Shown here: positions 10,717 through 48,916 of the stretch, piece by piece
Position numbering within the stretch: the first letter of the stretch is position 1
Layout of the letters: the number at the start of each line of letters is the position of its first letter
NCBI RefSeq assembly: GCF_038595065.1
Contig: NZ_CP152003.1
Span: forward strand, 1,964,001-2,028,000
Direction: 5' to 3'
Source of the DNA: Sutcliffiella sp. FSL R7-0096
GTDB lineage: Bacteria > Bacillota > Bacilli > Bacillales > Bacillaceae_I
DNA length: 64,000 nt
The notes under the pieces: generated by a model
Seen by the model: only the letters and a program-made list of their open reading frames with translations
Told to the model about the DNA's origin: nothing
Database searches by the model: none
Translations under genes and position numbers: made by a program

Positions 10717-10892
10717 AGCTCTTTTCGTATAGTTGCTTTTGCGTTTGTTTAAATGACCTTTATATTCCTAACTCGCGTGCTCTTTTCCTGCAATACTGAA
10801 TATGCTACGTGCATATCTAGAGTAAGTTAGCAGTATAAAGTCCAATTACCGACTTTTTACTAGTGAATAGCCCCGATCTTTAGAAAAGAGCC
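10717..10892. mobile_element. MITE-like element, copy 1 (176 bp)
   Basis: The left end AGCTCTTTTCGTATAG and right end TTTAGAAAAGAGCC are imperfect terminal inverted repeats of the family consensus GGCTCTTTTC. It is flanked by TTATTAAA on the left and TTTTTAAA on the right, a 7/8 match that fits an 8-bp target duplication. An imperfect internal hairpin ending GACTTTTTAC lies near the right end. No ORF is present, so it is non-autonomous. Confidence 0.8.
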
Positions 10893-25980: not shown

Positions 25981-26162
25981 GGCGGTTTTCGTAAACTTTG
26001 TTGTTTTTGGGATTTTGGAATCATCCTTTATCTTCCTTACTGACCTACTCTTTTCCCTGTTGTACTTAACTTATTACAAGCATATTTTCAGATATATAAG
26101 CAGTAAAAACTCCTATATTGACTTTTTACTGGCGAATTGCAACACTCTTTGAGAAAAGAGCC
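25981..26162. mobile_element. MITE-like element, copy 2 (182 bp)
   Basis: The left end GGCGGTTTTCGTAAAC and right end TTTGAGAAAAGAGCC are family terminal repeats. Perfect 8-bp copies of TTTGATAA flank it (25973-25980 and 26163-26170). An internal hairpin-like stretch GTAAAAACTCC...GACTTTTTAC lies near the right end. It lies upstream of the Gls24-like gene. Confidence 0.9.
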
Positions 26163-33697: not shown

Positions 33698-33716
33698 TAT
33701 ATATTTGGAACAAAAA

Positions 33717-34090
33717 GGCTCTTTTCGTAAAATTTGTTGCTTCTACGTACTTATGAACCAACCGTTATATACCTTATTGTCGTGCTCTTTTCCCTGCAAT
33801 ACAAAATTCACTGCTGCTTTTTTTATGTATCTAAGCAGTAAAAAGTCCAACTGCCGACTTTTTACTATTGAATAGCAAAAATCTTTGAGAAAGGCTCTTT
33901 TCGTAAACTTTGTTGCTTTTACGAATTTTTAAACCGTCCGTTATCTTCCCTACTGTCGTGCTCTTTTCCCGGCTGTACTGAAGAAACTACTTGCACTTTA
34001 TAGAGTCTGATAGCAGTAAAAAGTCCAATTGCCGACTTTTTACAAGTAAATAGCAACAATCTTTGAGAAAAGAGCCTTGAGAAAAGAGCC
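33717..34090. mobile_element. MITE-like element A (182 bp, split by element B)
   Basis: The left end GGCTCTTTTCGTAAAATTTG begins at 33717. The right terminal repeat is interrupted after TTGAGAAA (33885-33892) by element B and resumes at 34077 as TTGAGAAAAGAGCC, ending at 34090. Removing B and one 8-bp copy restores a 182-bp element. Its own flanks, AACAAAAA and CAAAAAAA, match at 6/8 positions. Confidence 0.88.
33893..34076. mobile_element. MITE-like element B (184 bp), nested in element A
   Basis: The ends GGCTCTTTTCGTAAAC and TTTGAGAAAAGAGCC are family terminal repeats. The perfect 8-bp duplication TTGAGAAA lies on both sides (33885-33892 and 34077-34084). An internal perfect 10-bp hairpin GTAAAAAGTC/GACTTTTTAC lies near the right end. 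There is no ORF. Confidence 0.92.
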
Positions 34091-34097
34091 CAAAAAA

Positions 34098-34249
34098 ACC
34101 CTGCTCGGATGTCCGGGCAGGGTCCTTCCATCCCTTGACATAATCAAGGTTAAGAAGGCAAAGGGAGAGGAGAAACCGGAGGAAGAACTTATGGGGAAAC
34201 GTAAGTCTTCTCCGCGGTTGGCAACAACATCACACGAAAGGATGTTGTT
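34098..34249 (+). ncRNA. Structured leader upstream of rsmD (probable ylbH leader)
   Basis: Several stems lie in a row. ACCCTGC/GCAGGGT is at 34098-34122 and CCTTGA/TCAAGG follows at about 34133-34149. A long stem at 34174-34219 pairs AACCG with CGGTT, GGAGGAAGA with TCTTCTCC and ACTTATG with CGTAAGT. A perfect 9-bp stem AACAACATC/GATGTTGTT lies at 34223-34249. A conserved leader RNA named ylbH has been reported upstream of this gene in Bacillus. Identity with it is inferred from position and structure; the region lies more than 320 bases before rsmD and has no clear T run. Confidence 0.55.
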
Positions 34250-34349
34250 ATAACTTAGTATGAACAGAATTAGAGAATGCTATACACATTAGTTTAATCT
34301 TATAGAATTTGATTTAACCCTTACTTAGTGATTGGGAGTCTCCCTGTGG

Positions 34350-34455
34350 ATTGTAATGCAAGGTGTAAGACTCCGGCGGGAGATAGCGGTAGGTTGCCGA
34401 CCGTTGTGAGGAGGCTCAAGCAGCGCCCTCTGGATAAGCGAACACCTGGAACAAA
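34350..34455 (+). repeat. Family R repeat, diverged copy
   Basis: Landmarks are TAAGACTCCGGCGGGAGATA, GTGAGGAGGCTCAAGC, GGATAAGCGAAC and ACCTGGAACAA. Both ends are degraded. It lies between the structured leader and rsmD. Confidence 0.7.
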
Positions 34456-34572
34456 AATTTACAGGAGTAAGTTAAGCTCCTTTCATGTAGCTTGAGAAAT
34501 ACTTTTGAATTTCTTGTCGAATATGATAGGATATTGATGATTGACAATCTAGAAATAAAGTATGGTGATACA

Positions 34573-48734: not shown

Positions 48735-48916
48735 GGCTGTTTTCGTAAACTTTGATGCTATTTCGTAAATTCAATCATCCGTTATATTACTTACTGTCGT
48801 GCTCTTTGCCCGGTTTACTTAGAATACTACTTGCAATTTCTGGAGTATTAAAGCAGTAAAAAGTCAAAATGCCGACTTTTTACAAGTAAAAAGCAACAAT
48901 CTGTGAGAAAAGAGCT
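48735..48916. mobile_element. MITE-like element, copy 5 (182 bp)
   Basis: The ends GGCTGTTTTCGTAAAC and GTGAGAAAAGAGCT are slightly diverged family terminal repeats. It is flanked by TTATTATA and TTATTATT (7/8 match). The internal hairpin GTAAAAAGTC/GACTTTTTAC is intact. It sits between the carboxylase terminator and panE. Confidence 0.88.

Follow-up and report, generated by a model that had tools for sequence, protein, structure and literature searches.

In the 64,000-nucleotide stretch analyzed here (the window; positions 1964001–2028000 of a 4.91-Mb one-contig genome), positions 33717–34090 hold two copies of a non-autonomous transposon (MITE). The younger copy, element B, is inserted in the right terminal repeat of the older one, element A, at a site that resembles the family's own preferred target. 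We give a probability of about 0.93 to the whole account, in which the MITE would be moved by an IS1595-family transposase, A arrived before B, and the target-like repeat end would have served as a hot spot. A chance origin of the nesting and the accompanying duplication is excluded. The initial annotation of this region mentioned neither the IS1595 partner nor the repeated nesting at one site, nor the location immediately ahead of the ylbH leader RNA.

Element A is interrupted after 176 bp (33717–33892; forward strand, as for all features of the window described below), a part recognized by the family profile. Its last eight bases, TTGAGAAA (33885–33892), are the first copy of the target duplication; they are followed by the complete 184-bp element B (33893–34076), the second copy of the 8-mer (34077–34084), and the terminal 6 bp of A, AGAGCC (34085–34090), as placed by the profile alignment. 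Both copies of the 8-mer are read directly in the sequence. Conserved hairpin cores were located by pattern match at 33840–33863 in A and at 34018–34041 in B. The initial annotation had B splitting A inside its right terminal repeat, with the same eight bases on both sides, and its coordinates and lengths proved exact to the base. It had also held that deletion of B and one 8-mer rebuilds a 182-bp element like the rest of the family: rejoined A (33717–33892 plus 34085–34090) has this length and aligns continuously across the junction with positions 1–184 of the family profile (145 bits), and the alignment of the copies breaks exactly at the two TTGAGAAA points. A's own duplication has decayed, the left flank AACAAAAA (33709–33716) and the right flank CAAAAAAA (34091–34098, likewise read in the sequence) being equal at 6/8 positions.

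Identity between A and B is only 81%, so B did not arise as a recent duplicate of A. The copy nearest to B, at genome position 3047698, is identical to it at 183/184 positions and stands without A, within its own TTATCAAT duplication. This sister copy, together with the A-only allele of a related genome described below, bears out the claim of mobility, and A+B was not found as one conserved unit. One could suppose instead that no insertion took place and that neighboring copies gave rise to the block through tandem duplication or unequal recombination, as is likely for the closely similar copies at 926074 and 926263 in the same genome. We consider such an origin extremely improbable for A and B given their low identity, the complete ends of B, the presence of the 8-mer on both sides of B with the last 6 bp of A continuing afterwards, and an uninterrupted A in the related genome, which already refutes it.

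The pair lies in the ylb cluster, with the order YlbF/YmcA-family gene, DUF2129 gene, DUF7147 gene, short gene, A/B, ylbH leader, rsmD, coaD, and ylbJ. The ylbH leader RNA (RF00516; 34089–34217; 100.8 bits, gathering score 50) stands directly 3' of A and starts within 2 bp of its end. The first 13 bases of the leader (AAAAAAACCCTGC) are identical in 16/16 genus genomes, with the MITE present or not, and the leader–rsmD–coaD region is present in all 16. Another repeat, G+C-rich and about 133 bp long, with CTCC on each side, occupies 34343–34477 between the leader and rsmD; it has many other matches across the genus and is missing at this place in genome G009.

We compared the orthologous site in 15 other genus genomes, one genome per species. 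The closest of them at the locus, G009 (95% identity over the coding part), has a single uninterrupted 182-bp element upstream of the leader, identical to A at 169/182 positions. The retrieved flanks upstream of the leader in the other 14 genomes gave no family match at E ≤ 0.001. With a lenient threshold applied to 500 bp upstream, a 27-bp right-end-like stretch (E 0.5) was seen in the short intergenic region of G010, where it may perhaps represent a decayed relative. This stretch sits about 20–50 bases before the leader, in the same intergenic place as A. Because G010 is only 78% identical, far more distant than the genomes that lack such a stretch, an independent event would be the simplest reading of it; as a possible decayed end, it blurs the empty-site picture slightly. 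The tally for the 15 genomes is thus A alone in one (G009), no recognizable copy in 13, and a doubtful decayed end in one. By eye, the pre-leader sequence of G007, G012, and G001 is of a different kind, so these are weaker empty sites. B is found at the locus only in its own genome among the 16 compared. Since A stands alone in G009 and B is confined to one genome, A came first, as the nesting had suggested to the initial annotation; its proposed check for A-only and empty-site alleles found A alone in G009. Within the genomes compared, the succession is from an empty site to A and then to B.

The window contains further family copies, recognized by sequence match, at 10718–10892, at about 25981–26162 (the start being 25986 in another search), and at 48735–48915. 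The hairpin core has 144 matches in the genome and the right end 131, compared with none for either in the reversed control; some copies hold two or three cores. Copy counts cover the retrieved stretches, i.e., the best 100 of the 144 core places and the best 100 of the 131 right-end places, and one copy scoring took the best 40 of 191 candidates. The stretches retrieved gave 143 profile hits, comprising copies, fragments, and some split hits, of which 103 are full length. Cores in tandem, repeated two to three times with a step of about 28 bp, were seen in 15/143 hits, e.g., at genome positions 880622, 1131358, 1252887, 1809568, 2791661, and 3126534; the hit at 1134942 is excluded as an internal deletion.

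The claimed 8-bp target duplication holds for the family at large. Over the 103 full-length copies, mean flank identity is 0.84 at a length of eight bases and 0.39–0.49 at the other lengths from 4 to 12. The 8-bp flanks are equal at all positions in 41 copies, compared with a mean of 0.5 in 1000 re-pairings of the flanks, and at seven or eight positions in 72 copies (1000 re-pairings: mean 2.9, maximum 9). The remaining features are also those of a MITE. The two elements, at 182 and 184 bp, could encode at most 61 codons and have no room for a transposase, the ends of B are 84% complementary over 31 positions, and copies are dispersed not only over this genome: B was matched in 16/16 genomes of the genus. 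This genus is probably Sutcliffiella, since one retrieved stretch (L072) shares 93.8% identity over 1,467 bp with a record from Sutcliffiella horikoshii.

Exact matches to the 24-base left end were found in at least 120 stretches from named genomes; among the 80 matches listed, its carriers are Bacillus, Rossellomorea, Mesobacillus, Sutcliffiella, Robertmurraya, Litchfieldia, Pseudoneobacillus, Sporosarcina, and Paenibacillus. The interior was recognized at E ≤ 1e-5 in 24/179 loci of other genomes, and the ends are therefore more widely spread than the interior. No match to the whole 184-bp element was found in the plasmids or phages searched, nor to the 24-base end pattern in the viral contigs searched. 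Elements of about 216–633 bp with similar ends and a different, G+C-rich interior were observed at loci L214 (3901–4533), L175 (3286–3894), and L149 (genome 954554–958676).

The likely mobilizer, judging from its ends and duplications, is an IS1595-family insertion sequence. A 30-nt query from the MITE end, run against plasmids, led to an element on a Niallia plasmid (L302, 529–2293). It has ends GGCTCTTTTCGTAAGAATTGTTGC and GGCTGTTTTCGCATAGATTGTTGC, closely similar to those of the MITE, an 8/8 duplication TTTAAAAA, and genes for a transposase of the IS1595 family (WP_127739870.1) and for a passenger protein of the DinB family. A tblastn search gave 134 plasmid records with IS1595 matches, six of which were examined. 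Similar ends were also found in IS1595 elements on a second Niallia plasmid (duplication 8/8; L320, 2422–4107, with a hypothetical gene beside the transposase), in Priestia flexa (7/8), and in Cytobacillus solani (8/8), and a more distant one with GGCT ends in Pontibacillus (8/8); the same script found no ends in an Alicyclobacillus plasmid record. Since the transposase matches of P. flexa and C. solani are broken into two and three pieces, respectively, with no annotated gene, those copies may be dead. Within the genus, IS1595 is present in G002 as two identical copies, whose ends are GCCTGTTTTC...ATTGTGG and which are flanked by the duplications TAAAAGAA and TTTTTATT; the second base of their ends deviates, GCCT compared with GGCT in the MITE. 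The 8-bp duplications of the Niallia, Priestia, Cytobacillus, and G002 elements are A+T-rich. Both IS1595 ends thus resemble, without being identical to, those of the MITE over about 24 bp, and the duplication length is equal. The DDE_Tnp_IS1595 domain scored above cut-off in 3/3 transposases scanned and the zinc-ribbon model below it; A and B are too short to encode such a transposase and hence are not autonomous IS1595 elements. A 1105-bp element of Bacillus sp. AFS055030 (L190, 3481–4585) seems to stand midway between an insertion sequence and a MITE. Its ends are MITE-like and its duplication agrees at 7/8 positions; it contains a gene for a nucleotidyltransferase (PF06042) and, when read by eye against the Niallia protein, the C-terminal portion of an IS1595 transposase.

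An intact IS1595 transposase was not found in the genome itself, which counts against IS1595-driven movement. A search of this genome for the PF12762 domain gave no match, and the only trace detected by protein search is a decayed remnant with stops at 2467510–2467760. Following other MITE-like ends without a core in this genome brought up fragments of the MITE or unrelated genes, and no insertion sequence. As B is nearly identical to its sister copy, its movement looks recent, and the enzyme may either be gone or sit on DNA outside the one-contig assembly. The mobilizer could instead belong to a different family that combines GGCTCTTT ends with 8-bp duplications, e.g., ISL3, the members of which produce 8-bp duplications and have similar outer bases, in keeping with the MITE. 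ISL3 matches occur in 2/18 genomes of the family, G005 and G010, but no MITE-like ends were seen in the retrieved flanks of these genes, the ISL3 domain search of the MITE's own genome gave no match, and it is the IS1595 elements whose two ends and duplication length agree with the MITE. We therefore regard a mobilizer of this other kind as very unlikely; the domain search behind this comparison covered IS1595 and ISL3, two of several families with 8-bp duplications (IS256, IS6, and IS4 being others).

Nesting of this kind has recurred at one site. A join test of the 103 full-length copies presupposed no site and took as clear those cases in which the junction falls inside another copy at E < 0.001. 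It yielded three clear nestings in this genome (the window, 3445319, and 1409894), all at the identical eight bases of the right terminal repeat. Two weak results were left out of the clear cases: 4896012 (E 0.25) at the same site in inverted orientation, and 970571 (E 0.033) at a different position, which, if nested, would speak against a unique site. The pair at 926074/926263 was rejected as nested, being a tandem arrangement, as was a hit beside 1921048, where the match does not span the junction. A second search, in which the site was presupposed, applied the junction pattern to the 16 genus genomes and gave 30 matches in 10 of them, compared with three in the reversed control. Beyond the insert, the host repeat continues in 8/30 matches, three in the genome of the window, three in G003, and one each in G004, where the host is poorly preserved, and G012. 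It does not resume in the remaining matches, including one with a repeat-like left side (L347).

The site hit lies in the inner part of the right repeat, TCT-TTGAGAAA-AGA (target site sequence TCTTTGAGAAAAGA). Under the 8-mer preference alone, it has a median of only 3% of the target weight within the element. This low share would fit a transposase tethered at the terminal repeats, or selection against insertions at other positions, as the cause of same-site nesting rather than target sequence. When four flanking bases on each side were added, the share rose considerably. The resulting 16-bp profile, built from 68 insertions with the four nested ones left out, ranks the site first in 80/103 copies with a median share of 59%. 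After removal of 10 insertions with AGAG or CTCT in the target, as possible hidden nestings, the remaining 58 rank it first in 76/103 copies (40%), or in 72/103 (29%) without symmetrizing. Given median shares of 29–59%, sequence preference is largely enough to explain the nesting at one site, and we consider tethering or selection rather unlikely, with the reservation that the profile and the tested elements come from one and the same genome. The site scores 7.18, a value attained by 0.05% of 91,854 flanking positions and standing at the upper quartile of the real targets (quartiles 3.12, 5.15, and 7.2, with self-exclusion applied in scoring to the first 12 of the 58 targets only). Hence, the right-repeat site is a strong but not unique target.

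These results suggest the following scenario. The MITE, with ends that resemble those of IS1595-family insertion sequences in Bacillaceae, would be mobilized in trans by an IS1595 transposase acting on the GGCT...AGCC ends. Its targets would be A+T-rich and roughly palindromic, and the 8-bp stagger made at insertion would be filled in to give the duplication. A entered the stretch that separates the upstream gene from the ylbH leader in an ancestor shared by the strain and G009, and B entered the right terminal repeat of A later, in the strain's own lineage. The site was probably chosen because TCT-TTGAGAAA-AGA resembles the preferred target, and we infer that the enzyme's own preference made it a hot spot. 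As a further, speculative extension, the right repeat might also serve the same transposase as a strong target, through which the family inserts into itself, truncates the copy that is hit, and so brakes its copy number. The resemblance to the target and the repeated hits are observed; the braking effect is conjecture, and we hold the extension as a whole to be doubtful.

Some relatives of this system are known. The ISHwa6 row of Table 4 in PMC3852290 gives, for Haloquadratum walsbyi, an IS1595-assigned MITE of 165 bp with a 25-bp inverted repeat, an 8-bp duplication, and seven copies; by its description, it has the IS1595 assignment and the duplication length in common with our family, its host being an archaeon. 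Duplications in the IS1595 family are usually 8 bp, and terminal GG is stated for the related Merlin elements (PMC8101967). The ends of A and B are closely similar to those of Bacillaceae members of this family, whereas A and B encode no transposase. The bcr repeats and the IS231 mobile insertion cassettes of Bacillus cereus are likewise non-autonomous Bacillaceae repeats moved in trans, but their ends and duplication lengths probably differ from those of A and B. A terminal repeat as an insertion hot spot also has a parallel, as IS231A reportedly inserts into the terminal repeats of Tn4430; there, two unrelated elements are involved, whereas here a MITE family hits its own repeat. Our literature search found no publication with the MITE end or core strings and no description of such a Bacillaceae family.

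IS1595-type MITEs with 8-bp duplications were already known, and what is new is a terminal repeat that resembles the element's own target. The mechanism of self-nesting is unusually clear here. The locus provides an internally dated pair of transpositions, the older allele of which is kept in a sister species. An abundant Bacillaceae repeat family, a description of which was not found in the literature searched, is now linked to IS1595, probably as its mobilizer, and offers a simple, testable example of a transposon end that is like its own target site.
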